Source: a virus
IMG/VR virus record: IMGVR_UViG_3300006929_000041
Span: 1 to 38,256 of that record
DNA length: 38,256 bases
Direction: 5' to 3' (one strand)
The notes beneath the pieces are model-generated. The model was not told the DNA's origin. It was given only the letters and a program-made list of their open reading frames with translations, and ran no database searches. Shown piece by piece: positions 3,827 to 36,494 of this stretch (position 1 is its first letter; each line of letters opens with the position of its first letter). The position numbers and the translations under genes are program-made.

Positions 3827-4561
3827 TCATGCTAACCAAGAAGCCCAAGCCAAACCTTTACTTATGGCGTTTCCTAGGCCCAATCCGCTAGATGGTGGTG
3901 TATATGTGGGTTGTCCGGTCATAGGGTCAATCCAATATGGGTTATTCATTTGGTCATAACCTGACGGCGGAACAGGGAAGCCACTTTGATTATTGAATGC
4001 CTGTTGCTGTTGCATCATAGCATTATTCATTGCAACTCCAGCATTACTTCCTTGAATCTGTGATGGGGCTAAACCTTGAGGATTACCTCCAGGCATACCT
4101 TGTTGTGGCATACCTTGTTGTGGCATACCTTGAGGCATACTTTGTTGCGGCATTGAACTAGTTGAGAATCCTTGCGATTCTAAATATTGTTGTTTAGCCA
4201 TCTTTCTTTGCATAATAACTTCCGTATTTAATGCAGAAGCCAAGAGAGTTTGTAAATCTAATGTAATATTTTCAGCAGTTATTGATTCATATTCTCTTAG
4301 AGCATCTGAATGAACTGATATTTCTCCATTAGAATTACTGACAAATTTTAGTTTAACTAGCATTTGACTTACTACTCTTTCTATTACATCTTCCATTAAT
4401 TTTTCAAAAGACGTTAAAAATGATTCTCCATGATATTGGAAAAACTCTTCCACATGATTATCCTGTAAGGTTAAAAGGTTGTTCATCACCTTAAAATCTG
4501 ACTGTCCTTGATTCGTTATCTGATTAGATAGCGAACTATTACTTGTTCCAAATAAACCCAT
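3827..4561 (-). CDS. Helical protein with Met/Gln/Pro repeat tail
   Basis: This 244-residue protein is preceded by a strong ribosome-binding sequence (GGAGGTAGAATAAAATG). Residues 1-130 are predicted helical, with an amphipathic segment (EEFFQYHGESFLTSFEKLMEDVIERVVSQML). Residues 135-160 are a low-complexity tract with near-perfect PQQGM pentapeptide repeats. The rest is Gln/Asn/Pro/Gly-rich and ends in a short hydrophobic segment (ISKGLAWASWLA). Such flexible tails are common in virion proteins that bridge layers or attach to membranes. Its position, directly after a zinc protein and the GTPase gene, puts it in the head accessory block. The function is unknown. Confidence 0.55.
   Translation of the reverse strand: MGLFGTSNSSLSNQITNQGQSDFKVMNNLLTLQDNHVEEFFQYHGESFLTSFEKLMEDVIERVVSQMLVKLKFVSNSNGEISVHSDALREYESITAENITLDLQTLLASALNTEVIMQRKMAKQQYLESQGFSTSSMPQQSMPQGMPQQGMPQQGMPGGNPQGLAPSQIQGSNAGVAMNNAMMQQQQAFNNQSGFPVPPSGYDQMNNPYWIDPMTGQPTYTPPSSGLGLGNAISKGLAWASWLA
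4092..4153 (-). repeat. 15-bp in-frame tandem repeat encoding GMPQQ units
   Basis: The plus-strand unit GGCATACCTTGTTGT occurs twice perfectly (4092-4106 and 4107-4121), followed by diverged copies to about 4153. On the minus strand it encodes the Gly-Met-Pro-Gln-Gln repeats of the overlapping gene. It preserves frame, so it is a coding repeat that can change length by slippage rather than a regulatory element. Confidence 0.8.
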
Positions 4562-4562
4562 T

Positions 4563-5231
4563 TTATTCTACCTCCTCTATTACTTGAGGAATTACTTGTG
4601 CGCCACCAGAGATTAATTTCAATACTCTCTTATTAATTGCTTGGCTTTCTATTGTTAATCTAAACATTTCATCTTCTAATGTTTCTGATTGCATTTGCGG
4701 GGGTCTTATTGTCCAGCCAACCTCACTCAATGCCTCGATGTCGGTCTGCCTTAATGAAGTTAGCGGTGCAGATTGTAAGATTTTAGGAACTTTCGGTGTA
4801 GGAACAAACCTTTTAAATTCTAAGCCATGTTCATCGGCTATTATTTGTTGCTCTAACATTTCATATTGTTTGTGTAATCTAGCATGTTTATCACAATAAG
4901 TGCCTCTCATTGGATAACCCTTCCTAACTTTATGAAGAGGTAATGGTGGTCTTGTTTGGTCAGATGCTTCCCAAACTTTGTGAGTTCCACAAACAACGCA
5001 TCTATCTCTTGTATTGAATTGAAAACTATAGGGAATCTTAAGGAATGTCTTTTTCTGCGGCCAAAGAATTTTAATCATTTCCTTTAATTGTTTCTTCGGT
5101 TTAGAACTTTTATAGTCATAGTTCATTATTCCTCCAGCAGCGCGAGCATACTTTATAGGAGGTAAAAAGGCATTAGCAACTTGAGCATTAGTTGCTCCAA
5201 TTAATGAAGGAGGATTATATTGCATGCTCAT
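4563..5231 (-). CDS. Zinc-knuckle protein of the head accessory block
   Basis: This 222-residue protein most likely starts at the ATG at 5231, because AAGGAGTG lies six bases upstream; a GTG three codons earlier is less well placed. Cysteines 78 and 81 (CVVC) with Cys113 and His116 (CDKH) form a plausible four-ligand zinc site around a basic loop. The C-terminal third is helical and acidic. The start overlaps the stop of the 20-codon cysteine-rich microgene (ATGA), so the two are likely translationally coupled. I know no family for it. Its N terminus (QYNPPSLIGATNAQVANAF) could be an extended arm. Confidence 0.55.
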   Translation of the reverse strand: MSMQYNPPSLIGATNAQVANAFLPPIKYARAAGGIMNYDYKSSKPKKQLKEMIKILWPQKKTFLKIPYSFQFNTRDRCVVCGTHKVWEASDQTRPPLPLHKVRKGYPMRGTYCDKHARLHKQYEMLEQQIIADEHGLEFKRFVPTPKVPKILQSAPLTSLRQTDIEALSEVGWTIRPPQMQSETLEDEMFRLTIESQAINKRVLKLISGGAQVIPQVIEEVE

Positions 5232-5290
5232 TCTAAACACTCCTTACAATAGCAATCAAGGCCCATAGAACAATTGTTAGTTATTACCAT
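5228..5290 (-). CDS. 20-residue cysteine-rich microprotein
   Basis: The short frame MVITNNCSMGLDCYCKECLE fills the otherwise empty interval between the GTPase and the zinc-knuckle gene. Three features argue that it is translated. A strong GGAGGAT ribosome-binding sequence lies six bases before its ATG. Its start overlaps the GTPase stop (TAATG), and its stop overlaps the next start (ATGA). Its four cysteines are arranged C-x5-C-x-C-x2-C, which could bind one zinc ion. Alternatively, it is only a leader peptide that couples translation of the downstream gene. Confidence 0.5.
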   Translation of the reverse strand: MVITNNCSMGLDCYCKECLE

Positions 5291-5958
5291 TAATAATCCT
5301 CCATCATTGTTACTAATCCTCTATATACCATTTCTGAATCTGATTTTGCACTTACTATGTATTTGAAGCAGGGTATTCCTCTATCATTTAATTTAGCCAT
5401 ACCGTCTTTAAATGAATCGAATATTGGGTGTTTTTGTATATCATCATAAGGATATTTGTCTTTCCATAAATCGAATTTATTTGCCCATAGTCCTATTGCA
5501 ATTGGATAGTCATGTGCTTTTTTTCTTTTCCTTTTATTTATTACATCCCAATAAGGAGAACATACTGTATCAACTAAAAAACTCCAACATAACTGTTGTT
5601 CTATATCATAATGTTTATCCATGTGTCTATCATCTATCATGAATATAATGTATTTTACTTTACGGGTTCTCATATCTTTAAGCCATTCGCCCCAATAAAG
5701 TGTTTCTCCTCCTACATCTGCTGCTTTGATTGTATGTTGGTCTCCATCAATTTTAATAGTCTTTCTGGTAGCCCTGCCTCTTCCAACGGTTCTATCCTTA
5801 ATATCTGGAACTTCTCCTCTTGTTCTCATTTGATGATGCAATGTTGTTTTTCCTACTTTTGTTGCGCCATATACTCCAAAAGGAATAGCGTGAACTTTTC
5901 TCCAAAAATGACCCAATTTTTCAGCCATGATGATAACAAAGCCTGTCATTACAGACAT
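5290..5958 (-). CDS. Arf/Ras-like small GTPase
   Basis: This 222-residue protein carries all the signature boxes of a small GTPase in the right order. G1/Walker A is GATKVGKT at residues 31-38. A threonine-containing switch I region lies near 57-67. G3 is DVGGE at 81-85, with the double glycine typical of the Arf/Sar branch. G4 is NKFD at 160-163, and G5 is SAK at 203-205. It should bind and probably hydrolyse GTP. The extra basic segment at 141-148 is unusual. A start at Met11 (MAEKLGHF) is possible, but GGATGAT directly before codon 1 supports the longer form. It sits next to two membrane proteins. The box set is seen directly; a role in membrane or assembly control is inference. Confidence 0.85.
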   Translation of the reverse strand: MSVMTGFVIIMAEKLGHFWRKVHAIPFGVYGATKVGKTTLHHQMRTRGEVPDIKDRTVGRGRATRKTIKIDGDQHTIKAADVGGETLYWGEWLKDMRTRKVKYIIFMIDDRHMDKHYDIEQQLCWSFLVDTVCSPYWDVINKRKRKKAHDYPIAIGLWANKFDLWKDKYPYDDIQKHPIFDSFKDGMAKLNDRGIPCFKYIVSAKSDSEMVYRGLVTMMEDY

Positions 5959-5962
5959 AATA

Positions 5963-6190
5963 TCATCCTACTAAATGGTGCCAAAAATTCCAGAAGCCCT
6001 CCCATGTTTCTTTATACACATTTACCCCAAATAAGGGTAATGCGTGTCCAACAAGAAAGCCTACAATTGTAGATACTGTCCCCCAAAAGAAATATCTAGC
6101 CCTAAGAAACCATACATCAGCCGAATGTGCTCTTTGTAAGTCATACGCTAATGTGGTTTCATCAAAGCCCATTGTAATTGCTTCAAGCAT
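5963..6190 (-). CDS. Small membrane protein next to the GTPase
   Basis: This 75-residue protein has one clear hydrophobic segment (about residues 30-54: ARYFFWGTVSTIVGFLVGHA and onward) flanked by a charged N-terminal third and an aromatic tail (ETWEGFWNFWHHL). It starts at an ATG behind GAGGTAA. Its stop forms part of the GTPase ribosome-binding region, so the two are coupled. I do not recognise a family. It may anchor a partner, perhaps the GTPase, to the host membrane, or it may belong to a virion membrane-contact device; both are inferences from adjacency. Confidence 0.6.
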   Translation of the reverse strand: MLEAITMGFDETTLAYDLQRAHSADVWFLRARYFFWGTVSTIVGFLVGHALPLFGVNVYKETWEGFWNFWHHLVG

Positions 6191-6198
6191 TTACCTCA

Positions 6199-6597
6199 CT
6201 ACTCAATTTGAGCCAAGAATGAAGTAGGAACTCTTGGTTCCTCTTGTCTTGGTAATGGAGGAACAGGCATATATTGTGTTTGCATAGGGTTATATGAACT
6301 CATACTTTGACGAATTTTTTCCCTCTGTTCAGCATCTCTTTGCTTTTTAGCCCAATATGCTCCTATTCTTCTATCTACTAAAAACATTTCAATTTTATCA
6401 TTTAATGCTAAATCAAATATTGCTTTCATTGCTAATATTGCTCCAATAGTCATTAGCCCAAATATCAAAGCATGGGCATATTCATTAAAAGCAATCATAC
6501 TACCATATTTACCATAAAAGTAAACATTGGTTCCGCTAATCGCACCAACGAATAATATCGTCATTACGAGTTTTGTGTCTCTTTCTAGTGCTGGCAT
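6199..6597 (-). CDS. Two-span membrane protein
   Basis: This protein has about 132 residues counted from the ATG at 6597, which has GAGGGAT just upstream; a TTG four codons earlier is less likely. Two hydrophobic stretches, about residues 10-28 (LVMTILFVGAISGTNVYFY) and 40-62 (ALIFGLMTIGAILAMKAIF), look like a helical hairpin. They are followed by a charged helical region and a Pro/Gln-rich tail (PVPPLPRQEEPRVP). The overall shape recalls small membrane proteins that sit next to structural genes in archaeal viruses, but I can name no family. It is one of two membrane proteins directly before the GTPase. Confidence 0.6.
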   Translation of the reverse strand: MPALERDTKLVMTILFVGAISGTNVYFYGKYGSMIAFNEYAHALIFGLMTIGAILAMKAIFDLALNDKIEMFLVDRRIGAYWAKKQRDAEQREKIRQSMSSYNPMQTQYMPVPPLPRQEEPRVPTSFLAQIE

Positions 6598-6605
6598 TTT
6601 ATCCC

Positions 6606-6917
6606 TCAAAAGTATTGAACCGAGAAACTTACCCCACTATTACTTCCACTACCTGAAACTTCAACAAAAACACCATTAATAGCAATTGCACCATGCATGT
6701 CGAAATCAATATTCTGATTTACTGCACCTACATGGACTTCTGCTATCTTTGTTGCACTATTTGCTGTTCCATCATAGAAAGTTACTGTTTTGTCTACTGC
6801 TGCATCATTACTAACCTTAATAGATTGTATTCTAATACGGCCAGTAATGGCTTGAGTTGATGCTGTTCCGCTTCCTGAAACAGTTAAAACTCCTGTATTA
6901 TTGCATCCACCAGACAT
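6606..6917 (-). CDS. Small beta-rich virion protein, decoration/fibre candidate
   Basis: This protein has about 103 residues starting MSGGCNN at 6917. The ATG is supported by AAGGAGGACTTAGTT directly upstream. The sequence is almost entirely short strands rich in Ser, Gly, Val and Thr, with alternating hydrophobics (IRIQSIKVSND, KTVTFYDG, GVSFSVQYF), as in jelly-roll or immunoglobulin-like capsid decoration proteins. Two cysteines are absent from most such proteins, but one lies near the N terminus here. Placed shortly after the capsid genes, it is probably a surface protein. The fold is inferred from strand pattern, not from a recognised family. Confidence 0.5.
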   Translation of the reverse strand: MSGGCNNTGVLTVSGSGTASTQAITGRIRIQSIKVSNDAAVDKTVTFYDGTANSATKIAEVHVGAVNQNIDFDMHGAIAINGVFVEVSGSGSNSGVSFSVQYF

Positions 6918-7768: not shown

Positions 7769-9142
7769 TCATGCACTTGTTAGGTTGGTTATTTTACCTT
7801 GTCCCTTGAAGAAAGAACACCCGGTTTCGGCAATTGTTCGATACATTGCCTGATTACCTAGTGTTCCTACACCAAATGGATTTCCGTGGTCTATTCCATC
7901 CTCAAAGTATTGGGTTGGCTTTAACACACTCATCCAAAGGTGGTCTGTATCAAGAATAAGCATATCACTTAACTTGTTAGAACCATTTCCAGTCTTAGGC
8001 ATATCCTTACATGGAATAATTGGTATATCGTAGTAGGTAGCAACTCTAAAGCCGACTTCCTTACCCTTTACACCGCGCACTCCATTATGAGTAGGGATAA
8101 CTTCCTTTCTATCCATAAACCTTTCTTGTGCTTGTAATAGGTCACCTAAATGCTGAATAGTATCATACCCAGTTAAGATAACCTTTGGCGAACCACCATT
8201 CTCTCGTAGCCTTCGTAGCATGTCGTTAATGACTGTTAGCGTTAGAACGCGAGCATCACCTGCTGCATATCCACTACCAAAATCTACTTCAGCATCAAGG
8301 AATGATGCGTTAAATGCGTTGCTGACTAATTGCCTGTCTGTTGCTCCATATATGGTGCTTAGAGTAGCAGTTAAACCACCAGTGCTAGATGTAGAATCAT
8401 CCAGCATTGACGCATCAACCATTGCTTCCATTTCTTTACTAGATGCAACAACCTTCATCAACGAAGTGTAATTCTTGTTGATATTTACTCGGTTATCGCT
8501 ACCAGTGATTACTTGGTCATAGGCTTCTAATGGCATAAGAAGCATCTTATTCTGAACTTCAGCATGATGCTTTCCCATATCTTCACGGACTAAAGCGCGT
8601 AAATCGCCTACTCCGTCATCAATCTTAGCCATCTCAAGAGCCAATTCTGAGAACTCAAACAAATGAGCCACAGTCTTTGGACTGGTGAATAACTTTGTGT
8701 ATTCTGGCGTAATGGCCGGAATATCATTACCAGTTCCTAAAGATGCGTTCTCAGCGACACCACCGATATTATCAGCAGATGGAGCATCAACACCGCGAGA
8801 TGTTGCTGCGCCACTTAATGTAACATCGAAGGTTGAACCTGAACCACCTTCTGCTCTCTTCTTTAATACTCGCCAGCCACTTGTTGTATATGGCCTCTTA
8901 GCGAGCATAGCCAAAGCATTAACCTCTTGGTTAAGCATAGACCATACTTTCTGTCCATAAGCCCTGTTATACAAGTCAGCAAGTCCTGAAGCACCGGATA
9001 AACCAGCAACATCAGTATCATGGCCTGTTCCTGAAGAACCCCACGATACAACTCCTGCACTCTTTAACAAAGCATTACCGCTTCCCCCACGAACTCCGTA
9101 GGTAGCGGCTTCTAAGTCTTTCATTGTCTTAATGTAACTCAT
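7769..9142 (-). CDS. HK97-fold major capsid protein
   Basis: This protein has 457 residues from the ATG at 9142, which is preceded by GAGGAGTGA; a GTG three codons earlier is less likely. It builds the icosahedral shell. It follows the protease/scaffold gene and has the expected composition. A Gly/Ser-rich N terminus of about 60 residues is short for a delta domain. A helix-rich region (LFEFSELALEMAKIDDG) resembles the spine helix. A C-terminal stretch (DTDHLWMSVLKPTQYFE, then ALGNQAMYRTIAETG-like sequence) is typical of capsid proteins of archaeal and bacterial tailed viruses. Function is assigned from these features and gene order. Whether the N terminus is cleaved by the protease cannot be seen. 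Confidence 0.85.
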   Translation of the reverse strand: MSYIKTMKDLEAATYGVRGGSGNALLKSAGVVSWGSSGTGHDTDVAGLSGASGLADLYNRAYGQKVWSMLNQEVNALAMLAKRPYTTSGWRVLKKRAEGGSGSTFDVTLSGAATSRGVDAPSADNIGGVAENASLGTGNDIPAITPEYTKLFTSPKTVAHLFEFSELALEMAKIDDGVGDLRALVREDMGKHHAEVQNKMLLMPLEAYDQVITGSDNRVNINKNYTSLMKVVASSKEMEAMVDASMLDDSTSSTGGLTATLSTIYGATDRQLVSNAFNASFLDAEVDFGSGYAAGDARVLTLTVINDMLRRLRENGGSPKVILTGYDTIQHLGDLLQAQERFMDRKEVIPTHNGVRGVKGKEVGFRVATYYDIPIIPCKDMPKTGNGSNKLSDMLILDTDHLWMSVLKPTQYFEDGIDHGNPFGVGTLGNQAMYRTIAETGCSFFKGQGKITNLTSA

Positions 9143-9147
9143 CTTAT

Positions 9148-9834
9148 TCACTCCTCAAATTTTGCTATGACATTATGAATGTCTCCCCAAGACATTTCAT
9201 TAACATCAAAATCGGGAACCTCTATTGTTTGTGCCTTAACAATCTCATTCGACTGTTCTGTTAGGCTCTTACGAAGAGAAGCAAACTCTTCCTTTAGGGT
9301 TTCAACCTCATTCTTAGCATCATATTCGCTTCGTGCAACATCAGCCTTTCGGACAGATTGCTCACTAGCAAACCTTTCAGCAAACTTGGATTTCAAGGTA
9401 TCGTAAGCCATCTTTTCAAGTTGTTCTGCCTTGAAAGCGTCATACGCCTTTTCTACATTCTCAACAGATAGGTCTAAAGTAGCGAAATCATCATTAGTCC
9501 ACTCCTTGTATAGTTGTCCTACTTGTCCTGCTTGTGAATGCTTTTTCCCTGCGGCTAAATCTTCACCATATCCGTGTTCTACTGGGCCTTCAGGCCCATT
9601 TCTCATCTTTGTTTCTGCATCGTAGTTATTCATGGATTCTACAGATTCTTCATCTGCATCTGATGAATCTTCATCAGTGTCCATTGCTTCTACGGAAGCA
9701 GCATCTGAATCTTCTGATAATAGTTCTGCATTACCATCCAAATCAGGGTCTGCCCCTTCATCTTTCTTAAGGTCATTAACTTCCTTCATGAGGTCGTTAA
9801 GTTCCTCTAACGCTTTTTCCAATCTTTCGGTCAT
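9148..9834 (-). CDS. Nested in-frame scaffold protein (lambda Nu3-like internal start)
   Basis: Inside the protease gene an ATG at 9834 (Met176, MTERLEKALEELND) is preceded by AAGGAGGATAACGAT, a textbook ribosome-binding site at good spacing. It coincides exactly with the junction between protease domain and coiled-coil scaffold. Initiation here would yield a free scaffold of 228 residues sharing the C terminus of the protease. Lambda C/Nu3 uses the same layout. The site and spacing are seen; expression is inferred. Confidence 0.65.
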   Translation of the reverse strand: MTERLEKALEELNDLMKEVNDLKKDEGADPDLDGNAELLSEDSDAASVEAMDTDEDSSDADEESVESMNNYDAETKMRNGPEGPVEHGYGEDLAAGKKHSQAGQVGQLYKEWTNDDFATLDLSVENVEKAYDAFKAEQLEKMAYDTLKSKFAERFASEQSVRKADVARSEYDAKNEVETLKEEFASLRKSLTEQSNEIVKAQTIEVPDFDVNEMSWGDIHNVIAKFEE

Positions 9835-10359
9835 ATCGTTATCCTCCTTCAGAATGTCAAACTTTGCTTCCGGGTTTATTCCTTTTTCACAAATTGTGAC
9901 TTCATGGAGTTCTAATTTATCTATTTCATTATACTCGCCAATATCAGGGCTAGTTTTCTTTCTTTTTGATAGTGCTTGTCCACCTATACTAAATGAGCGT
10001 AATGTTCCTTTTCTAATTCCTCTAGAAATTTCTTTTGCTTTTTCTATGTCATCTCTTAATTTAATAACAACATAAAATCCTACATCATCTACTTGTGTTT
10101 TATGAACTTGTCCATTTTTATCTCGATATTTTTCTATAACATCTCCGACTTGAACATTTGAATGATTAGACATTACATTTCTATATTTCTTGACTTCCAT
10201 ATATTTCTTAACTGCTTCATTAAGTGCGCTCAGTGTAATTAAGTCATTTTGTTTATCTACAATTTCAATAGAAGCATATCCACCAATTATTAATTCATCT
10301 GATTTTAGTATATTAAAGTCGCCATTTGTGTCGCTTTTCACTAATCCTAGTTCGGACAT
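9148..10359 (-). CDS. HK97-type prohead protease fused to a C-terminal scaffold
   Basis: This 403-residue protein has its ATG behind GGAGAGTGA. Residues 22-170 form the protease: strand IIGGYASIEIVDKQNDLI, the His66 region (MSNHSNV), the Ser region RSFSIGG (Ser122/Ser124), and the closing EVTICEKGINPEA stretch. This is the usual order in HK97 prohead proteases (peptidase family U35), which cut scaffold and capsid N termini. Residues about 175-403 are acidic, coiled-coil-prone and alanine-rich, typical of a scaffold that is digested during maturation. A strong internal start allows the scaffold to be made alone. The stop overlaps the capsid gene region, which fits the canonical protease-capsid order. 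Confidence 0.85.
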   Translation of the reverse strand: MSELGLVKSDTNGDFNILKSDELIIGGYASIEIVDKQNDLITLSALNEAVKKYMEVKKYRNVMSNHSNVQVGDVIEKYRDKNGQVHKTQVDDVGFYVVIKLRDDIEKAKEISRGIRKGTLRSFSIGGQALSKRKKTSPDIGEYNEIDKLELHEVTICEKGINPEAKFDILKEDNDMTERLEKALEELNDLMKEVNDLKKDEGADPDLDGNAELLSEDSDAASVEAMDTDEDSSDADEESVESMNNYDAETKMRNGPEGPVEHGYGEDLAAGKKHSQAGQVGQLYKEWTNDDFATLDLSVENVEKAYDAFKAEQLEKMAYDTLKSKFAERFASEQSVRKADVARSEYDAKNEVETLKEEFASLRKSLTEQSNEIVKAQTIEVPDFDVNEMSWGDIHNVIAKFEE

Positions 10360-10398: not shown

Positions 10399-12912
10399 TT
10401 AGGCAATTTGCATGGCTAACTTTTTATGCCTATCGTTTGCAATATCCCATATGCCTTCGTCTTCTTTTGAATCTAACATTGTTTGTTTAAATCCAGTCCA
10501 TACAATCCATTTATCTTCATCCTTTATAGGAACTACTCTAAAGTGAAGTCTAGTCTTGAATTTATTTCCATTAATTTTATATTCATGATAACCATGCTTT
10601 TGAACACCTAATATTACTTCTCCCTTATCTAATAATTTATCAGGTTGACTCTTCTTTCCAACTTGTGCCGGAAACTTACCTGCCTTTCCAAATAAATTAT
10701 ATATGTCTTCTGCATCTTCAATATCAATTATCCAAATCATATCCTTATCTTTGTAATTAATAATAAATTCTATATTATTATCTTTTCTAACATACATTCT
10801 ATATGAACCAGAATCACCCGTTGATTCTTCATCTTTTATTACTTTCAAATCATTGTCTATGTAAGTAGTTGGAGACACTTGAATAAAATCATCATAATCA
10901 TCTATCCACTTTGAAAACTTAGTAAATAATCCATCCCATAATTTTTCAGTTAATTCTGGTTCGTTTTTAACCATAAACTCAAATATATCCTTTACTTCTG
11001 TTGGTTTTCCTTCTTTATGTAAGAAATTCTTAATTGCTACTCTTGAGTCAGAAGTATAAGACTTAATCATCTCAGTTATTTGCTCCTTCCACATATCCAT
11101 ATCAGCCAAAGCATTTTTCTGCATTAACTCATCTCCTTCAAAACCATAGATAGTAAATCCTTCATAATCAGATTTCATTATAATGTCTGCTTTACCATGA
11201 ATACCATCAGTTATTGTATATTTAAGTAGAGCGTCTTGAACATCATATTTAAGGGACTTTCTTCCTTCTTTAGATAAAAGTTCTAAAGTTATCAGTTTCT
11301 CTGGGGATTCCACTTCAGGTATTTCAATTACCTTTGCAGAATAAAGACTATAGCCTGTTCCCTTCCTTCTAACTTCATCTACTTTAACTCTAATGATTGA
11401 ACCAATACTAACTGATTGTTTTGTATTAAGAGCCTTACCTACAGGTAAATATGTTTTCCCTTCAAATTCTGTTCCATTGTGTTCCCTACTTTGTTCTCCA
11501 TCGAGAGGGCCAACTCCAACAGTATAAGAATATAAATTAGATTTTGTCTTTTTCTTATCTAAAACAATAACATCTAAATCTACAAATTTCTTCCACTTAA
11601 TCCATTTTGGGTTCTTTTTGTTCCCAAGATAATATGTTGATTCTATATCTTTTATTACTACTCCTTCTGCTGTTTTAGAAGACATTATATCTTTACCATA
11701 TTTTTCTATGTCTTTAATTGAATCTGCAATTCTAGAATTTTTCTTTGAGGGGAAATTGAATAGGTCTGATGAACCAGGAGATAATTGATAAAACAATATA
11801 TTTATTCTTTCTCTAAGTGGTGAATCTGCAAGGTCTTTACCATCATGATTCATTATATCAAACACCCTTGCTTTAAGTGTGGCATCTTTATATTTACCCT
11901 TAAATAGATGGGCTATAGTATCTGCTCTATGTAATGGTTCATCACCATCATATAAAATTAATTCCGCATCTAAAATCATATCACCGAATCTTTTTTGTTC
12001 TACTTTTTCGACAATATCTTTACACTTATCTGTAATATCCTTTTCATTGTAAGTATAGATTTTAGCCTTATTATCTGATTTATGGATTTGTATTCTGATT
12101 CCATCAAATTTTTCTTGAACTAAATATTCACCACTAAATCCTTTTAGTTCTTTAATATCATCTATTTCAAATATTCTATACATTGGTTTATTTGGAACGA
12201 TAAAATTAATTTCGGATTTCTCTTCTTTTTCATCCTCGTCTTTATCATCCTTCTTTATTTGAACATCAATTAATTCATCCCATTTATCTGAATCATTCGA
12301 TTCAAGGAAGACTTGTTCTAATAGATTTAATGCTCCCTTAAACTTACTTTTAACTCTAGTGGTGTCTGCATTATCACCATAATGTTCAATGATATAAAGA
12401 GGAATATCATCTAATTTGAGGTCTAACCCCTTAGCCCCTTGTGTAATCTCATCAGGCTTTAAGTCGTGGGCCTTCCAAGATTTCTCTTTAATGCTATGCG
12501 TATGTGCGCGTAGAGCGTAGTGTAAGAACATAGCATAAATAGAAGGAGTCTTAATTAATGTTTCAACTACCTTATCCCCCATTTGTTTAGCAAAGGGGTC
12601 GTTCATTTCATCTGATTTGAAGCGCATTTTCTTTACTGAATTGTATAATTTTTCAGCAGCATTTGATTGAGGATTATTAACCTCGTCATTAAATACATTG
12701 TCTTCGTCAAGGTATTTTTTTAATTCCGCGCTAAAATCTCCAAGTGAATCAAAATCAGTTCTTATCCTCTTAACTGCTGCCTTCCATTCATTACCATATT
12801 CTTTAGGGTCTTCTAAAGCAGACAAGTATTTATAGCGCATATCCTCATAAAAGTCAAGGACACGCTTCGCCATAGCACCAGTCTTTTTTCCGAATACCCC
12901 AGATTCTACCAT
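10399..12912 (-). CDS. ATP-dependent DNA ligase core in a large virion-region protein
   Basis: This 837-residue protein carries a clear nucleotidyltransferase core. Motif I is EKFDGIR with adenylated Lys268, then DAELILYDGDEP (motif III region, 315-326), FDIMNHDG (351-358), EGVVIK (motif IV, 416-421) and WIKWKK (motif V, 437-442). An OB-fold-like segment follows to about 560. It would seal nicks in duplex DNA using ATP. Residues 1-260 are helical and acidic, and 560-837 carry an extra strand-rich region ending near HEYKINGNKFKTRLHFRVVP. Both extensions are unlike compact phage ligases of 300-500 residues. It lies between small unknown genes and the prohead protease, which is odd for a replication enzyme. 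Confidence 0.9.
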   Translation of the reverse strand: MVESGVFGKKTGAMAKRVLDFYEDMRYKYLSALEDPKEYGNEWKAAVKRIRTDFDSLGDFSAELKKYLDEDNVFNDEVNNPQSNAAEKLYNSVKKMRFKSDEMNDPFAKQMGDKVVETLIKTPSIYAMFLHYALRAHTHSIKEKSWKAHDLKPDEITQGAKGLDLKLDDIPLYIIEHYGDNADTTRVKSKFKGALNLLEQVFLESNDSDKWDELIDVQIKKDDKDEDEKEEKSEINFIVPNKPMYRIFEIDDIKELKGFSGEYLVQEKFDGIRIQIHKSDNKAKIYTYNEKDITDKCKDIVEKVEQKRFGDMILDAELILYDGDEPLHRADTIAHLFKGKYKDATLKARVFDIMNHDGKDLADSPLRERINILFYQLSPGSSDLFNFPSKKNSRIADSIKDIEKYGKDIMSSKTAEGVVIKDIESTYYLGNKKNPKWIKWKKFVDLDVIVLDKKKTKSNLYSYTVGVGPLDGEQSREHNGTEFEGKTYLPVGKALNTKQSVSIGSIIRVKVDEVRRKGTGYSLYSAKVIEIPEVESPEKLITLELLSKEGRKSLKYDVQDALLKYTITDGIHGKADIIMKSDYEGFTIYGFEGDELMQKNALADMDMWKEQITEMIKSYTSDSRVAIKNFLHKEGKPTEVKDIFEFMVKNEPELTEKLWDGLFTKFSKWIDDYDDFIQVSPTTYIDNDLKVIKDEESTGDSGSYRMYVRKDNNIEFIINYKDKDMIWIIDIEDAEDIYNLFGKAGKFPAQVGKKSQPDKLLDKGEVILGVQKHGYHEYKINGNKFKTRLHFRVVPIKDEDKWIVWTGFKQTMLDSKEDEGIWDIANDRHKKLAMQIA

Positions 12913-15919: not shown

Positions 15920-17572
15920 TTAACCTACTCTCCTTTCGGTTCTTTTATCCACATTTTGATTGCCTGCATCAACAGGTAATCCACTAAATCTCTTATCTGG
16001 GCCTGTTGCACTAGAAGGTTTGTTTCTTGTAGCCTTAACCTTTGCAGGTTGCCCTGCTTCTTCCATTGTTGGTTTACCTGCTCCACCTTCCATCATTTCA
16101 CCTATATGTGATTGGTCTATATTTGTTCCAGCATAAGGGTCTCGCTCAATTTGTTCTTCTTCACCTTTAGGCCTATCTTTTACTTCTGGTGGCGGCTTCT
16201 TATATGAAAATCTACCTTCATCATCCATATCAACTTCAAATCCTAAATTCTTAATTGATGCTGCTATTTGAACTTGTATTTCTCTCTTTCTTAATTTAGC
16301 AACTTCATCTTCTTCCTCAGATGGTGGGAGTTTTAATTCCCAATCAGTTACTCCAAATTCTTGAGTTATAAATGGTAATACATAATTATTCCATATTGTT
16401 TGTGCCATCTCTACTGCACGATTAGTAACAAGTATTTGCATGCCCTCATTATTCAATCCACCACTAGCAGAATTGTCTGACATGAATACTTTGCTAACTC
16501 CATAAAATCCTGATATTCTATCTCTAAGGTCATCCTTAACAGATATGTAATCCATTTCTTTTAGGCTATCCAAGAACTTAATCCACTCAATAGACCCCTT
16601 TCCATTTTCTGCTTCAATTCCCATGACAGGTATGAAGTGTGGGTCTTGTTCCATCTTCTCTTTGACACCACGCCAAAAGGATTTCATTGAATCAATATTT
16701 CTAGTTTGAACTGCTAACAATCCTCTCGGCATTCTAGCCTTAGAGTAAGAAGAGTTTACATAATTCTCCATAGCAATTAAAGTAGTAATGTGATTCCATA
16801 ATGTTAGCACCGGAGATAACCCATAAAGTCTACTTGGATTATATTTACTGAAGTGTAATACTTCACCCTTTAGGTAATACTGTTCTTCTCCATGCGCCCT
16901 ATTAACATAATACACCGGATATAATTTACTAGCACAATATTCACAGGTGCTACCATCTTCTTGTGAAATCATATCTCTATGTTTAATACAAGTAAATCCG
17001 GCTGTTCCTTTAGTTCCATCTTCATCAGTATATAGAGCCATAGTAACTGGGTCTCCACGATATATTTCTTTAATCTTATGCATACGAATATCTCCATTAG
17101 CATCTAAGAAATACTCCTTAACTATTATGATATAGGCATCATCCATAATATTCAAATCGTCTTCTAATTCTTTTAGCACATCTATAAACATTTGTTCTGA
17201 TTTATTCACATATTTATCTAAGAATTTATTTGCATACTTTAATTGATTTGCATCTGGTTTTACCAAATTCATTTGACCGCAATCTTTGCATCTTTCTACG
17301 GGGGCTTTATGTTCTGCTCCACAACTCTTACACTTAGAAACAAACTTTTCTTCCCAAATATATCCTCTTCGGAAAATTTCATTCTTTAACTGTGTAGTGC
17401 AAGTTCTTACGATTACTGATTGTTGTGCTACATGATACAATATAGGTGATGTAATCATATAAGCATTATTCTTTTCCTGAATACCAGGATTAAATACTTC
17501 TTTGTCTTTCGGTTTAGGTGTTTGCCTTCTAAACAAATTACCTAATGAGAATCTTCTCTTTTCTTCTACCAT
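15920..17572 (-). CDS. Portal protein with zinc-ligand insertions
   Basis: This 550-residue protein is preceded by GGAGG seven bases before its ATG. It forms the dodecameric ring through which DNA enters and leaves the head. A typical portal stretch is seen around residues 235-290, LHFSKYNPSRLYGLSPV followed by a long helix, as well as the later helical region and a long, low-complexity, charged C-terminal tail. Two zinc-like sites are unusual: C81, C84, C95, C98 (CKSC...CKDC) and C195, H198, C210, C213. These lie in the wing/clip part of the expected fold. Its position after TerL supports the assignment. Confidence 0.85.
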   Translation of the reverse strand: MVEEKRRFSLGNLFRRQTPKPKDKEVFNPGIQEKNNAYMITSPILYHVAQQSVIVRTCTTQLKNEIFRRGYIWEEKFVSKCKSCGAEHKAPVERCKDCGQMNLVKPDANQLKYANKFLDKYVNKSEQMFIDVLKELEDDLNIMDDAYIIIVKEYFLDANGDIRMHKIKEIYRGDPVTMALYTDEDGTKGTAGFTCIKHRDMISQEDGSTCEYCASKLYPVYYVNRAHGEEQYYLKGEVLHFSKYNPSRLYGLSPVLTLWNHITTLIAMENYVNSSYSKARMPRGLLAVQTRNIDSMKSFWRGVKEKMEQDPHFIPVMGIEAENGKGSIEWIKFLDSLKEMDYISVKDDLRDRISGFYGVSKVFMSDNSASGGLNNEGMQILVTNRAVEMAQTIWNNYVLPFITQEFGVTDWELKLPPSEEEDEVAKLRKREIQVQIAASIKNLGFEVDMDDEGRFSYKKPPPEVKDRPKGEEEQIERDPYAGTNIDQSHIGEMMEGGAGKPTMEEAGQPAKVKATRNKPSSATGPDKRFSGLPVDAGNQNVDKRTERRVG

Positions 17573-17574
17573 GT

Positions 17575-18897
17575 TTATGCCTCCATTTTATTATTGTCTA
17601 TGAGTTTATTTATGTTATTAATATCAATATCCCATTCTTTCCAATCGAATCTAGTGTTGTCACTATGATTATGATATTTCATTAATTTGAATAATTCTTC
17701 CTTTCTATCTTTATACCAATCTTTCTTTTTATCGTTCTTCTTTATTTTAATTAATTCTAGAAGGACATCTGCATTTGGCCCCTTCATCTTAAAATGTGGT
17801 CTGCATTTAGTAAGTAATTTTTTAACTTCTGCTGCTGAATAAAAGTTTAATCTGTTAACTGGTCTAGTATCTTGTGGTGATTTTTGGTCTAAGTGCAATC
17901 TTCCCATACCTAATGATTTATGCATTTCCATCATAAATGCTTTGCCTCTATTTCCTGTTGCTACTAATCCTACTCTTGGATTATGATTTTTATCCATTGT
18001 AATATATCCATCTGAGTCAATAAATGCTGCTGTATATGCCCAGATATTTTTCTTAATGTCATCATTTATTTTGTAATATGCACCATCAACATTAGTTATA
18101 TTTTGGTCTTTAGCAAGTTTAGATATAATCATAGGAGAGGTTCTATTGTATAATTTCTTAGGAAGTGAATCATGTATTTGCCTAGAAGAAATACCCGGAC
18201 TTTCACAAACTGCCTTTAGTATACTCTTACGAATTTCCTCTTTAGGTGAGTTGCCTATAACTGTATCTTTCAAAGCCTTCTTATATGCCTTTTTAGTTAT
18301 ACTCATCTTTTTAGTAAGTAGAGCATATTCAGGCCCATAATCCAAATGTCTTCTATTTAAATCCATTTCCCAATGTTTACATAATAAATTAACTATATCC
18401 CTCTTATCTTCTTCCTTTGTTATAGTGCTTAACTTTCTAAGATGATATTCACTATTATTCATTTTATTTAATGGAATCTTATATTTTCTAATCCAATAAA
18501 TGCTATCCATACATTTGTCTAAATGGTCAGAATATCCACTTATTACATTGTCTATTGAGTTAGTGAATTGAATTTTATTTTCTCCCTTTAATGTTCTTCT
18601 GTATTTTCTCATTTCCTTAATGACAGTAGGTATATCATTTCCTTGAATTTCATATTTATCGGGAAAATTAAATAATTGCTTTTTTGCGTCAGTTAAATTA
18701 ATATCAAACCTTTCCGCATATTCTTTTGCTATTAATTCATTATCTCTAATAGGTTTATTATCTAACCATCCTCTATGTAACTCTTCTGACAATGCTTCTA
18801 ACTGTTGGACTTTAGGCTTAAGTGTTTCTAATATCTCTGTCTCTTCCTCATTCTCTTCAATTTCCTCATTAAGAGACTCTTCATTTAAATTTACCAT
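17575..18897 (-). CDS. LAGLIDADG-type protein between TerL and portal
   Basis: This protein has about 440 residues from the ATG at 18897, which follows GGTGATGATT. It has three parts: an acidic N terminus (1-30), a long helical region, and a winged-helix-like segment around 225-280 (SPGISSRQIHDSLPKKLYN). Then comes one LAGLIDADG-like motif (AYTAAFIDSDGYI, about 287-299) with the usual following strand pattern (RVGLVATGNRGKAFMMEMHK). A single motif suggests it acts as a dimer. It may be a free-standing homing endonuclease that cuts near its own site, or a LAGLIDADG domain adapted as a DNA-binding packaging factor. It lies in a conserved spot between two essential genes without interrupting either. 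Confidence 0.7.
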   Translation of the reverse strand: MVNLNEESLNEEIEENEEETEILETLKPKVQQLEALSEELHRGWLDNKPIRDNELIAKEYAERFDINLTDAKKQLFNFPDKYEIQGNDIPTVIKEMRKYRRTLKGENKIQFTNSIDNVISGYSDHLDKCMDSIYWIRKYKIPLNKMNNSEYHLRKLSTITKEEDKRDIVNLLCKHWEMDLNRRHLDYGPEYALLTKKMSITKKAYKKALKDTVIGNSPKEEIRKSILKAVCESPGISSRQIHDSLPKKLYNRTSPMIISKLAKDQNITNVDGAYYKINDDIKKNIWAYTAAFIDSDGYITMDKNHNPRVGLVATGNRGKAFMMEMHKSLGMGRLHLDQKSPQDTRPVNRLNFYSAAEVKKLLTKCRPHFKMKGPNADVLLELIKIKKNDKKKDWYKDRKEELFKLMKYHNHSDNTRFDWKEWDIDINNINKLIDNNKMEA

Positions 18898-18911
18898 AAT
18901 CATCACCTGTC

Positions 18912-20348
18912 TTAAAAATTCAGTCCCATAATACCCTGTGGAAGCCCCATTTGAGGCAAATTGGGAGCATCAAATATCTCCATGTCGTCAAGGAGCATAA
19001 ATGCTTCTGTCGGAGTCTGTGTGGCCGCATTTGCTAATGCAAGACCCATAACTAAATCGTCATGCGCCCCCACTCCTTCAAATTTGCCCGATTCTGTGAT
19101 AGAGAACATAGAAAGTTCTTCAATAAGAGCATTAGTTAGTTTTTTGCTGTTATTATCAGCATAAGGCAAGTGAATTTTTCCATTTTCAAAGTTCATTTGG
19201 AGATTTAGGATGATTTCTTGCTTTTTTCTCCTAGTAGTGTTAAAATCTCTAACATTTATGTCCGAAACAGAGCGTAATTCTTGAGTGAAGGCTTTAGCAA
19301 AGGTATTTGTTTCATATAATACTACTTCTGGCTCAAAAATCTTCGCAATTAGACGCAATTTGACAATATTTTCTCTAAATTGAACATTCTTGGCTCTATC
19401 TACATGAACAACAGTCTTATTTTGATTATCATCTACTTCTAATACCATAATTACATTGTAATCTCCATCTGTAGATATAGCAGGGTCTACACCGACATAA
19501 TATCTATACCCTTTTTCTTTTCTATGGCCTAATTTAAGCACAGCATGTTCATTCTTAGCATTTTGCATATGTTCTGGAGCAAATAGTGCTGTGCCTGTTG
19601 AAACTGGTATACATAAATACTCTCTTGTAAATTTTAGTGAACCAATCTCTGCTTTTCTTTGCAATAAAGAATCTAAGTCCCATCTTTCAGGCCAAAGAGG
19701 TTCATTCATTGAATCTAAACAAGGATATTTTCTAAGAGTATATGCTGGATTTTCTTCTAACTGTGAGAAAATATCAGTGTATGTAAAAGGAGTTCCTATC
19801 ATCCTTAAACTAGCAGTATGGTGAAGTGTAGGTATCATATCACCAAAGAACCAATCAGTAACTCTTTGAATACCAACCAAACTAAACTCCTTCAAAGGGT
19901 CATCAATAATAATTTCTTGAGGGTGAAGTCCACGAATCTGAGAACCTACTGACCTTTCAAGAACAGAATTACCATTAGTTAATGTTATATTTCCAATAGC
20001 CCATCCTCTTGACGGTTTGAATTTCTTTAATTGAGGAATATTAAACATTCTATCTATTTCTCTCATGTGAACTAATGTCTGCTTTTGGTTAGATGAAATG
20101 TATAGCATTTGAAATGGAGGTTCTTGGAATACTAGATTCCAAACTACCCATGAATGCATAAACACAGATTTTCCGTGGTCTCGACTACAGACTATTACTG
20201 TTCTATCTGTATTTTCCATTGTATCTAACCATTCTTCCATATATTTAGGATACATCATACCCAATACATTTTTAAAGAAATATGGAAAAGAGTTTTTGGA
20301 TAACTCCATATCCATATTATGAGCAAAATTTATACCTTCTAATTCCAT
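18912..20348 (-). CDS. terL: Terminase large subunit (ATPase and nuclease)
   Basis: This 478-residue protein has a strong ribosome-binding sequence, GGGAGGATTAAT, before its ATG. It packages DNA into the head. The ATPase part has Walker A-like CSRDHGKS (54-61), Walker B IIIDDP (146-151) and the coupling motif MIGTPF (183-188). The nuclease part begins at GVDPA with Asp288 and ends with GAHDDLVMGLALAN, whose acidic pair is a metal site. All are in the expected order for a complete enzyme. No tag is present at its N terminus. It is followed by a LAGLIDADG gene and the portal, and is separated by about 8.6 kb from the small-terminase-like gene. Confidence 0.95.
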   Translation of the reverse strand: MELEGINFAHNMDMELSKNSFPYFFKNVLGMMYPKYMEEWLDTMENTDRTVIVCSRDHGKSVFMHSWVVWNLVFQEPPFQMLYISSNQKQTLVHMREIDRMFNIPQLKKFKPSRGWAIGNITLTNGNSVLERSVGSQIRGLHPQEIIIDDPLKEFSLVGIQRVTDWFFGDMIPTLHHTASLRMIGTPFTYTDIFSQLEENPAYTLRKYPCLDSMNEPLWPERWDLDSLLQRKAEIGSLKFTREYLCIPVSTGTALFAPEHMQNAKNEHAVLKLGHRKEKGYRYYVGVDPAISTDGDYNVIMVLEVDDNQNKTVVHVDRAKNVQFRENIVKLRLIAKIFEPEVVLYETNTFAKAFTQELRSVSDINVRDFNTTRRKKQEIILNLQMNFENGKIHLPYADNNSKKLTNALIEELSMFSITESGKFEGVGAHDDLVMGLALANAATQTPTEAFMLLDDMEIFDAPNLPQMGLPQGIMGLNF

Positions 20349-20349
20349 A

Positions 20350-20643
20350 TTAATCCTCCCAAATATATGTCTTTTTTTGTTTAGTATATCCTGGTATTGC
20401 CTTTATATTAGGATGCACTTTAAGCATATGAGGTAATGCTAATCTAGTAGGTATTCCTCTAGTAGATAATAGTCTTTCTCCTATTTTCTTTCTTTCTTGA
20501 TTTATGTCATAAATTCCGTCAGCAAGAATACCGATAATTTGATTAGCACTCATTGGAGTAATTAATTTTTCTTCAAGTATTTTTTCCATTGTAGGGTGAA
20601 ATTTTTTACCTCTTACTGATTTAATTACTGTAAACCATTCCAT
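20350..20643 (-). CDS. Tag-bearing small protein with winged-helix look (MEWFTVIK)
   Basis: This protein has about 97 residues from the ATG at 20643. GAGGGATTAAC lies just before this ATG, so a start five codons earlier would bury the ribosome-binding site and is rejected. The protein opens with the shared signature MEWFTVIKS. A helical segment (PMSANQIIGILADGIYD), a second helix and a basic region (TRGIPTRLALPHMLKVHPN) then a strand pair give a winged-helix appearance, so DNA contact is possible. It is directly upstream of TerL and coupled to it. Function unknown. Confidence 0.55.
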   Translation of the reverse strand: MEWFTVIKSVRGKKFHPTMEKILEEKLITPMSANQIIGILADGIYDINQERKKIGERLLSTRGIPTRLALPHMLKVHPNIKAIPGYTKQKKTYIWED

Positions 20644-20654
20644 GTTAATCCCTC

Positions 20655-21002
20655 TCATCTAAATCTATGGTCAAGCATTGTTGTATCTTCTAAACATGAT
20701 TCATATTCTCTATAGATTTCTCTTAATTTCAAATACAAATCTCCCTCTTCCCCGCTAGTTAATTCAACATTTAAAAACTTCTCTTTGAAATAATCAATTC
20801 CTTCGTTTTCTGTTCGGCTTAATACTTGTTCTACTTCTTCACACTCACCATTAAGTGTGGAATTCGTAACAAACATTAACCATTTATTCCATTCTGTAGT
20901 TCCTGTATTGCTAAAATTTGCTATGACGCTACTTCGTAAATCTGCGCAACAATCTTCAACAAAGTTAATATCAAGATTCTTTAATATATCCATCCAATTC
21001 AT
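20655..21002 (-). CDS. Tag-bearing acidic protein (MNWMDILK)
   Basis: This 115-residue protein opens MNWMDILKN, a near-consensus copy of the shared signature. The start overlaps the stop of the 50-residue upstream gene (ATGA). The remainder is acidic and mainly helical, with two adjacent cysteines (DCCADL) near residue 18 and a C-terminal helix ending TMLDHRFR. I see no enzyme motif. It is one of several tagged small proteins directly before TerL. Confidence 0.6.
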   Translation of the reverse strand: MNWMDILKNLDINFVEDCCADLRSSVIANFSNTGTTEWNKWLMFVTNSTLNGECEEVEQVLSRTENEGIDYFKEKFLNVELTSGEEGDLYLKLREIYREYESCLEDTTMLDHRFR

Positions 21003-21151
21003 TCTTCCTCACTCCAATACCATTCATAAAGAGAATCTATTAATTCCTTTGTTTCATTCCTATGGTCTCGCCAAATTTTCTTTTTCTTTTTAAGTTGCTT
21101 AAACCCTTCAAGTTGTGCGTTCCAGTAATCCCAATCAATATCCCAATTCAT
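20999..21151 (-). CDS. 50-residue tryptophan-rich protein
   Basis: Read directly from the sequence, this frame fills the gap between its neighbours. It starts MNWDIDWDYWNAQLEG and has a central lysine run (KKKKK) and an aromatic/acidic end (LYEWYWSEEE). Both boundaries are ATGA overlaps, with the upstream stop and with the start of the next gene, which strongly suggests that it is translated. The start keeps the M-N-W of the shared signature but has Asp where the hydrophobic residues and lysine are expected, so it is a degenerate copy or a chance match. Confidence 0.6.
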   Translation of the reverse strand: MNWDIDWDYWNAQLEGFKQLKKKKKIWRDHRNETKELIDSLYEWYWSEEE

Positions 21152-21408
21152 TTCTTTCCCAATATATTTCTAGCGGTTTGGCAACAAAATCTAATTTTTT
21201 GTGTTGATTGAAGTAACCAAAATGAATCTTTTTCTAAATCAAATTTCTTTTCAATATGTCTACACAATTCATATCTAGACATTGCTTCAAAATCATCATC
21301 AATCTCTAAACCCATTATTGGGCCTGTTTCGTGCGTTATTCTTTTATCTAACCATACATAGGCATTGCCCATAAACGCAATTAACTTTCTAATTATCCAT
21401 TGTTTCAT
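21148..21408 (-). CDS. Small helical protein with degenerate tag-like start (MKQWIIRKL)
   Basis: This protein has about 86 residues from the ATG at 21408, which has AAGGAGTG upstream; a GTG three codons earlier is less likely. It opens MKQWIIRKLIAFMG: a tryptophan at position 4 followed by hydrophobics and basic residues, like a shifted version of the shared signature. An acidic middle and a cysteine pair (RFCCQTARNILGKK) at the C terminus follow. Its stop overlaps the 50-residue gene. Family unknown. Confidence 0.5.
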   Translation of the reverse strand: MKQWIIRKLIAFMGNAYVWLDKRITHETGPIMGLEIDDDFEAMSRYELCRHIEKKFDLEKDSFWLLQSTQKIRFCCQTARNILGKK

Positions 21409-21421
21409 TATGCCCACTCCT

Positions 21422-22258
21422 TCAAAAGAATCTTGTCCCCTGTTTTGTGCTATCTATGTATTCTCTAAACTCAGGATTTTCTTCATACATTTTCCAATAC
21501 TTATTTCCTTGCCAATTCTTATCTAAGTTATTATCTATTATGTGTTTAATCATCTTAGAGATTTCTCCCACACCACCTAAATTACTCGCTCCCACACCAT
21601 CTAAATTCCTTCTTATACGATTTGCACGGTGGCCCTTGTTTTGCCACTCTTGGTCTTCAAACATCTCTTCTAAATTGAGTTTAAGCATTTCATCTACCAT
21701 CTTACTGTATGTGTAATCTATGGGGTGTGGGCCATCACCCCAAATAGCAACTCCTGCTTTATTACTCAAAGTAGTATCATAAACCCAATAATCTTTAGGA
21801 ATAGGAACAGCAGTTACCATATTGTTAAATCCATTTCCTTGAACCATGCCTATTTCCCACCAATTCTTATGTAAATTCTCTCTCCAAGAGGAACTAGGCC
21901 CAATATAAATAAAACCTATACCTTCCTTTTCTACCTTCTCCATAAATTCCAATACGCTTTTACTCCTTAACATATTTTCCTTCATTTCTTTAGGTAACTG
22001 TTTTTCTAGTTTTTTCTCTATGGCCGCTATATGGTCTGCTACTGGGGGTGAATTATCGCTTCCTCCAAACCCACTAACATTAATTGGAATCCATTTTTTT
22101 ACCCTACTGCCAACCCAACCACTAGACTTACTAACATGAATCGGATGATGTTTTTCCATTAGTGCTTCAGGTTCACTATTTCTAGGGTCATAAAGTAACA
22201 GTATACCGTTATGATTACCCTGCTTTAAAATATCAAACCAACTCATACTTTGTTTCAC
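21422..22258 (-). CDS. Tag-bearing 278-residue protein (MSWFDILK near the start)
   Basis: A GTG start at 22258 follows GGGAGGT at ideal spacing and gives MKQSMSWFDILKQG; the ATG four codons later would put the shared signature exactly at the N terminus. Both are possible. The rest contains a glycine-rich aromatic region (SGWVGSRVKKW), a strand-turn region (EGIGFIYIGPSSSWRENLHKN), another strand region (MVTAVPIPKDYWVYD) and a helical C-terminal part. It looks like a folded, possibly enzymatic domain, but I can name none. The upstream gap is one of the longer spaces in this cluster. Confidence 0.55.
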   Translation of the reverse strand: MKQSMSWFDILKQGNHNGILLLYDPRNSEPEALMEKHHPIHVSKSSGWVGSRVKKWIPINVSGFGGSDNSPPVADHIAAIEKKLEKQLPKEMKENMLRSKSVLEFMEKVEKEGIGFIYIGPSSSWRENLHKNWWEIGMVQGNGFNNMVTAVPIPKDYWVYDTTLSNKAGVAIWGDGPHPIDYTYSKMVDEMLKLNLEEMFEDQEWQNKGHRANRIRRNLDGVGASNLGGVGEISKMIKHIIDNNLDKNWQGNKYWKMYEENPEFREYIDSTKQGTRFF

Positions 22259-22323
22259 GGTCTAAACCTCCCTAAGCACCATATCCCATATAGTAAATCC
22301 CATATAAATCTAATCATCCTTAT
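22259..22323 (-). promoter_or_regulatory. Possible internal promoter in a longer intergenic gap
   Basis: This 65-base gap is unusually long here. Read on the minus strand it contains two AT-rich boxes with similar flanks (TTTATATGGGAT and ACTATATGGGAT) before a strong GGGAGGT ribosome-binding site. The first resembles an archaeal TATA element. There is no experimental or sequence proof of a start site, and the boxes could be chance in AT-rich DNA. Confidence 0.25.
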
Positions 22324-22698
22324 TCATTCTACCTTTTTATAGTCTCCTGCTGCTGGAGATTTACCTTTAACTATCCAATTAGGGTGCTTCATCAATACAT
22401 TAAACATTGTTATATCATATTTTGACCTTTCTGCCATTTTTAATCCTCTAAAGTGTGCATTTATAAATATTGTAGTTGCGTGTCCAGTTCTTCGTTCAGG
22501 ATGCTCTGTTTTTAGTAGTGCTTTAATTTTAGGTTCTAAGAAAGGAATAATGCCTTCACGAATATTATGTGTGAAAAAATGACTACCAATAGGAACTGTA
22601 TCTGCCCATTCTCTAGTGGCTTCTCTAACTAATTTTGATACATTGAATACATTTAAAATGTTAACATTCCTCTTTCTTAATATGCCTATCCAACTCAT
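22324..22698 (-). CDS. Tag-bearing 124-residue protein (MSWIGILRK)
   Basis: The start overlaps the stop of the 841-residue gene (ATGA). The opening MSWIGILRKR is a shared-signature copy with Arg before Lys. The rest is basic and folded-looking: a helix (NVSKLVREATREWAD), a His-containing loop (SHFFTHNIREGIIPF), an alternating strand (HATTIFINAHFRGLKMAERS) and a C-terminal PNWIVKGKSPAAGDYKKVE. I see no known domain. It resembles small virion-associated proteins only by context. Confidence 0.55.
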   Translation of the reverse strand: MSWIGILRKRNVNILNVFNVSKLVREATREWADTVPIGSHFFTHNIREGIIPFLEPKIKALLKTEHPERRTGHATTIFINAHFRGLKMAERSKYDITMFNVLMKHPNWIVKGKSPAAGDYKKVE

Positions 22699-27222: not shown

Positions 27223-27223
27223 C

Positions 27224-29644: not shown

Positions 29645-29646
29645 AT

Positions 29647-31362: not shown

Positions 31363-31364
31363 AT

Positions 31365-32296: not shown

Positions 32297-32308
32297 GATT
32301 AAACCCCT

Positions 32309-34348: not shown

Positions 34349-34353
34349 AATAA

Positions 34354-36087: not shown

Positions 36088-36091
36088 ATTA

Positions 36092-36490: not shown

Positions 36491-36494
36491 TATA

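Follow-up and report, generated by a model that had tools for sequence, protein, structure and literature searches.

A small-GTPase system that acts on membranes has been described in euryarchaea. Its small GTPase, ArvA, has a helix at the N terminus and is required for vesicle formation, and its gene is co-operonic with those for ArvB and the Zn-ribbon protein ArvC (PMC10927574). Deletion of ArvC results in over-vesiculation, ArvC has been proposed to act as a GAP, and ArvABC corresponds to OapABC of Haloferax volcanii, HVO_3014-3012 (PMC10927574). We describe here a small-GTPase gene from a tailed virus that lies in an operon with genes for membrane proteins and a putative zinc protein. The window, meaning the whole stretch of DNA that was analysed, comprises 38,256 nucleotides of IMG/VR virus record IMGVR_UViG_3300006929_000041.

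The GTPase gene (5290..5958) is on the minus strand, as are all of the cassette and virion genes described below, and encodes 222 amino acids from an ATG start. The earlier note on this DNA had read four GTPase motifs in order in this frame, and all of them are present: the G1/P-loop GATKVGKT (5845..5868, residues 31-38), the G3/switch II motif DVGGE (5704..5718, residues 81-85), G4 NKFD (5470..5481, residues 160-163) and G5 SAK (5344..5352, residues 203-205). Among 217 distinct homologs DxGG and NKxD were kept without exception, and GxxxxGKTT and the switch-I Thr57 were each kept in 216. Clades I and II of the relatives have SAK as G5, and clade III has ATR; W89, W92, R111 and Q122 are invariant. 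These motifs suggest that the viral protein may bind and hydrolyse GTP. At the position of Ras Gln61 most of the homologs carry Glu and, two exceptions apart, the others carry Gln, so that intrinsic hydrolysis is uncertain.

Upstream of the P-loop the protein carries an N-terminal hydrophobic helix (5893..5955, residues 2-22, MSVMxGFxIL...), a candidate membrane-binding element that is conserved in the alignment of all three clades and is predicted over residues 2-22 in the AlphaFold2 model. It is hydrophobic but only weakly amphipathic, with a hydrophobic moment not above that of shuffled sequences. A wrongly chosen start codon could have produced a false helix. This was rejected: codon 2 varies among relatives at its synonymous third position, and the helix is therefore true coding sequence. 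A GGTGAT-like element precedes the ATG or TTG start immediately in several relatives. The gene is under purifying selection, with dN/dS of ~0.10-0.12 against four relatives at measurable distance; the value against the very close L001 is 0.35, where dS is only 0.05. The reading frame is thus an intact small-GTPase gene and not a chance one.

The AlphaFold2 model of the GTPase (pLDDT 68, pTM 0.68) is weakest in the P-loop and switch regions, which fall below 50, and its predicted secondary structure comprises a six-stranded sheet and five helices in Ras order. The top 50 matches in a Foldseek comparison with the PDB were small GTPases, almost all Ras with one Rab33 (E ~1e-7), and the sole exception was a complex containing G-alpha. 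The model therefore has small-GTPase topology. The earlier note had named placement in an unrelated P-loop family as the outcome that would overturn its reading; this was not borne out, since both motifs and predicted fold are those of a small GTPase. The protein belongs to the Ras superfamily of P-loop (TRAFAC) GTPases.

Its position within the superfamily is less close to Arf than the earlier note had proposed. Scored as a single sequence, the window protein matched NCBIfam small_GTP (E 9e-5), Pfam MMR_HSR1 (E 9e-4) and Ras (0.01), all below the curated cut-offs. Pfam matches of single family members scatter over Roc, MMR_HSR1, SRPRB, Ras and Arf, and none exceeds the cut-off for the window protein. 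PF00025 (Arf) did not match the window protein at E<=1 or the window record at E<=0.001, and it gave weak sub-threshold matches in some other members. When the viral GTPase was compared by hhalign with single references, which serve as rough yardsticks, KRAS scored 96%, RAB1A 87%, ARF1 84% and SAR1 54%, and RHOA and RAN were near noise. 'Arf-like' as a family name was accordingly not sustained, PF00025 being one of several sub-threshold matches and KRAS ranking above ARF1 and SAR1; membership of Arf was rejected on these scores together with motif differences. At ~20% identity, phylogenies of small GTPases are not resolved. On the sequence comparisons, we regard the viral protein as forming a separate, divergent family of small GTPases.

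The GTPase gene of the window is collinear with genes for virion proteins: a major capsid protein (MCP) of SU10/HK97 type (7769..9151), an S78 prohead protease (Peptidase_S78, 9148..10359), a portal protein (15920..17572) and the terminase large subunit (18912..20348) form one block with it. An ATP-dependent DNA ligase of 837 amino acids (10399-12912), with long extensions beyond the ligase core (255-441), adjoins the protease and is kept in place in all relatives with flanking sequence. A 443-aa ORF (17575-18906) lies between portal and terminase, and its C-terminal part resembles, by eye, a LAGLIDADG-type homing endonuclease.

Magrovirales are recognised by a family B DNA polymerase (PolB), an ATP-dependent DNA ligase, genomes of 90-110 kb and halovirus-like capsid genes (PMC10768690, PMC12999244), and are presumed to be viruses of Poseidoniales (PMC12999244). 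Whole relatives of the window virus are ~93-102 kb, the window being a 38 kb fragment. PolB was found in 12/12 long relatives tested, and ATP-dependent ligase in the window and in relatives. In clades I and II PolB is encoded by two ORFs, one for the N-terminal part (~560 aa) and one for the C-terminal part (~305 aa), and in clade III by a single ORF (comparison of long relatives of L008, L027, L038, L078, L127, L119, L168, L171 and L176); a PolB-NTD/CTD split is labelled in the genome map of Aoguangviridae (PMC10768690). A chaperonin gene is present in clades II and III and not in clade I. On the split PolB, the ligase, the size of the genomes and an MCP like that of haloviruses, the window virus and its relatives fit magroviruses (Magrovirales; Aoguangviridae, Apasviridae group), and the host, taken from the virus group, is presumed to be one of the Poseidoniales. 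The earlier note had hinted at an Asgard host. All matches of the capsid protein are to archaeal tailed viruses, those of Haloarcula and of methanogens, and the relatives carry the magrovirus hallmarks; on this identity an Asgard origin was rejected.

Relatives of the GTPase occur in at least 97 IMG/VR contigs, the best 80 of which are full length with 66-96% identity. Clade II GTPases (~60-66% identity to the window protein) gave at least 188 matching stretches, which may overlap with the matches counted for the first set, and clade III GTPases (29-34% identity) at least 170. Since the first loci had been found via the GTPase itself, relatives were also chosen independently, by capsid protein alone. 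Fifty of the loci so chosen extend 4.5 kb or more beyond the capsid gene on its downstream side; the GTPase was present in 50/50, as was each of the four cassette neighbours. Absence of the gene from relatives, which the earlier note had set as a point against its own reading, was thus checked and not found in any relative tested. In long contigs (93-116 kb), picked through the GTPase family or its capsid neighbour, there was exactly one GTPase copy per contig in 20/20. The GTPase is the best-conserved member of the cassette across relatives, with a median identity of 73% vs 65% for MCP. These results show a core gene under strict conservation, which no relative tested lacks.

We also considered, and rejected, a recent acquisition of the gene from a host: a scan of genome contigs gave only two contigs, both from a Maricaulis MAG and both virus-like, and these were judged mis-binned. 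At least three contigs of this bacterial GTDB MAG (Maricaulis sp. isolate IN14; L159, L160 and L243) come from different magrovirus-like viruses, and we therefore regard it as contaminated. It was through this MAG that a divergent clade of the GTPase cassette was first met.

The GTPase lies in a five-gene cassette with conserved order and gaps of a few bp. In the direction of reading, the first gene encodes a 136-aa protein (6199..6609) that ends in a charged tail rich in Pro and has two hydrophobic segments, one above the transmembrane (TM) cut-off and the second seen by inspection. The second, directly upstream of the GTPase gene, encodes a 75-aa protein (5963..6190) with one predicted TM helix. 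The earlier note's two neighbouring membrane proteins were confirmed in that TM segments are predicted in both and that both were found in every relative with enough flank. The GTPase gene is followed by one for a putative zinc protein of 225 aa (4563..5240), conserved in position, which has eight invariant columns across three clades, among them C81, C116 and H119. Its core is predicted with high confidence, and its fold had no PDB match. Kinship of this protein with ArfGAP or ArvC was rejected, there being no Pfam or PDB support and no match to a known GAP. The last gene encodes a protein of 244 aa (3827..4561) with an N-terminal half that appears helical by eye and a Q/N/M/P/G-rich C-terminal half, a possible scaffold.

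The evidence for homology between clades differs among the cassette members. The GTPases of different clades are homologous (hhalign 99.85%, E 1e-30), and so are the zinc proteins (79% and 95%, E 1.6e-5 and 5e-8). The Q-rich protein is borderline, at 72% for clade I vs III and with no significant score for II vs III. For the TM proteins of clades I and III, profile comparison detected no homology; they match in position and in hydrophobic segments or topology only. A small ORF that looks AbrB-like by eye lies between the GTPase and zinc protein genes throughout clade III (L246 10750-10947 and equivalents) and is absent from the cassettes of clades I and II.

The place of the cassette bears on what it does. 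In clades I and II it begins soon after the capsid gene, with the GTPase start 1.3-2.9 kb downstream, and stands collinear and tightly packed between capsid/decoration genes and genes that look like connector or tail genes. The divergences of GTPase and MCP are correlated (Mantel r 0.78, 143 loci, P 0.001), as for vertical inheritance. Both observations would suit the main rival to the membrane reading given below, namely a switch in morphogenesis: the GTPase would be a GTP-dependent assembly factor for the joining of head, neck or tail, and the TM proteins would be assembly-site anchors or minor virion proteins. Clade III (TerL identity 36%) speaks against an obligate link to head genes. There the cassette keeps its order but precedes the terminase gene by ~7-8 kb, with ~21 kb separating it from the capsid gene. 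Because clade III retains this order beside the terminase, the conserved unit is the cassette and not its place in the head operon. The earlier note's placement of the GTPase among virion genes thus stands for the window, and its 'head accessory block' does not stand as a defining feature. Furthermore, HCTV-1, a haloarchaeal relative with a homologous MCP, has no GTPase, and we know of no tailed virus that uses a Ras-type GTPase for assembly. We consider a morphogenesis switch rather doubtful.

We favour, with a probability of about one half, the reading that the GTPase is the switch subunit of a virus-encoded membrane complex, formed from the five-gene cassette, that reshapes or permeabilises the host membrane late in infection. 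The two TM proteins, perhaps together with the N-terminal helix of the GTPase, would most likely bring the GTPase to the cytoplasmic membrane of the host, where GTP binding would switch the complex on. The zinc protein might regulate the GTPase cycle or act as an effector, and the low-complexity Q/N/M-rich protein might serve as the scaffold. Expressed with the virion genes, such a complex would reshape or permeabilise the membrane late, for virion release or for membrane-linked assembly. These are the likeliest stages because the genes of clades I and II are collinear with virion genes and no recognised lysis genes were seen within the window. What we infer is that GTP is hydrolysed, that the proteins form a complex, that this complex remodels the membrane and at which stage of infection it acts. 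The co-occurrence of the GTPase with two membrane proteins and a zinc protein suggests that magroviruses control the host membrane by a GTP switch.

The same TM and zinc partners could instead be decoys or receptors, with the GTPase mimicking or titrating a host GTPase or its regulators and so, for example, blocking vesiculation or excluding superinfection. Small GTPases occur widely among archaea, and in euryarchaea vesiculation is driven by them (PMC10927574). On the other side, a gene that is strictly conserved in all relatives tested and lies with virion genes is more likely to serve a core than an accessory function, and a PADLOC search gave no match, on which a defence role was rejected. 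We judge host manipulation of this kind to be unlikely.

Many other ORFs of the window share a feature at their N termini. A tag of the form [WF]xx[ILV][ILVM][KR] is present on 13/47 otherwise unrelated ORFs, vs 1.5% of internal windows (binomial P ~1e-13). Examples in the region 20350-36953 are 36495-36953 (MNWHLILK), 35767-36087 (MSWWKIIK), 35435-35770 (MKWFNIIK), 34710-35438 (MNWKELLK), 34354-34713 (MTWFDLVK), 28737-28991 (MSWEDILK), 22324-22698 (MSWIGILR) and 20655-21002 (MNWMDILK). The divergent clade has an analogous tag (L246 5207-7109, MNPFDQAWxLLK), and L311 8527-8898 seems to bear the tag at its C terminus. Since the capsid protein (..NALLK/SAG) and the prohead protease (..FNILK/SDE) contain a similar [IL]LK, the tag may be a T4-like signal for capsid targeting and protease cleavage of head-packaged proteins.

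The cassette ORFs lack this tag, which argues against their being part of an entry apparatus, in which TM proteins and GTPase carried in the particle would open or fuse with the host membrane at a time set by cytoplasmic GTP. The linkage with head genes that clades I and II show, and the constant presence of two small TM proteins, would be consistent with such a role. Tailed virions, however, have no membrane in which to carry TM proteins, and GTP is met only after entry. This seems to us very improbable.

Returning to the membrane complex, a more far-reaching form of it is tentative, and we hold it at less than even odds: the cassette may be a GTP-switched membrane-remodelling machine of magroviruses, made up of a GTPase, its anchors in the membrane, a regulatory zinc protein and a low-complexity protein as coat or scaffold, and used for cell exit or for reshaping the cell. 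It would then be to viruses what vesiculation is to archaea and Arf/coat systems are to eukaryotes, and the first machine of its kind in tailed viruses. The literature that we searched contains no report of GTP-switched membrane control in tailed viruses and no paper joining magroviruses with a GTPase, though the gene may have been annotated as a GTPase in an earlier table; the ICTV profiles and open papers on Magrovirales that we consulted mention neither GTPase nor cassette. The earlier note had called a GTPase in the head accessory block of a tailed virus, next to two membrane proteins, unusual, and the collections agree that such a GTPase is rare. Good matches in a viral structure library came almost only from giant viruses of eukaryotes, no small-GTPase family among 38,880 PHROGs was matched by KRAS or ARF1, the annotated phages and plasmids in the collections searched held no relative of the GTPase, and the libraries of prokaryotic viruses that were searched contain no other Ras-type GTPase.

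Reports place magroviruses among the most abundant viruses of the ocean, and Poseidoniales are among the commonest marine archaea. To our knowledge no magrovirus has been cultured, and we know of no description of how one leaves its host. A GTPase kept in every relative tested, within a cassette that is mobile and conserved in order, names five genes for expression and testing. If the cassette does remodel membranes, GTP-switched membrane control is used by archaeal viruses as well as by archaeal cells and eukaryotes, with a bearing on the origin of Arf-like vesicle systems. Should the GTPase prove to be no more than an assembly factor, it is still unusual for tailed viruses to have a Ras-type GTPase among their core genes.

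Compared with known small GTPases, the viral protein has its best fold and profile scores with Ras and Rab, the copies from giant viruses included, and SAK as G5 is common to both. It differs from them in having ~20% identity and no significant family assignment, and the giant-virus copies sit in viruses of eukaryotes and not in tailed viruses. SRPRB (PF09439), itself a GTPase, is among the most frequent weak Pfam matches of the viral GTPases (36/37 in set A1), and the viral protein may likewise be tied to the membrane by its N terminus. The match is weak (best E 6.4e-5; 13.6 bits for the window protein vs a cut-off of 25), the viral N-terminal segment falls short of a normal TM helix in hydrophobicity, and no SR-alpha partner was found. 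With Arf and Sar1 the viral GTPase shares a switch II of the form DxGG[EQ] (DxGG[EQH] in Arf/Sar1) and a predicted N-terminal helix before strand 1. Unlike them, it has GA[TS]xxGKT in place of GLDxAGKT, [ST/A]xDxGG[EQ] without the tryptophan of WDVGGQ, and G4 NK[FYHA]D, not NKQD; its G5 is SAK (ATR in clade III), and the four invariant residues noted above are specific to the family.

By analogy, the mode of action that we propose would resemble that of the vesiculating ArvA, ArvB and ArvC, and ArvA is its closest functional precedent. No Pfam match to ArvB (DUF2073) or ArvC (DUF2072) was found in the cassette proteins of the window at E<=1 or in 46 homologs of the zinc protein. As ArvB and ArvC are not present by Pfam, we do not count the viral cassette as a member of ArvABC. 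It also differs from that system in its two TM proteins and Q-rich protein and in a zinc protein without a match to a known fold. What the two have in common is a small Ras-superfamily GTPase with an N-terminal hydrophobic helix, weak Pfam matches that, as for ArvA, include Arf and MMR_HSR1, an operon shared with a zinc protein, and a euryarchaeal setting.
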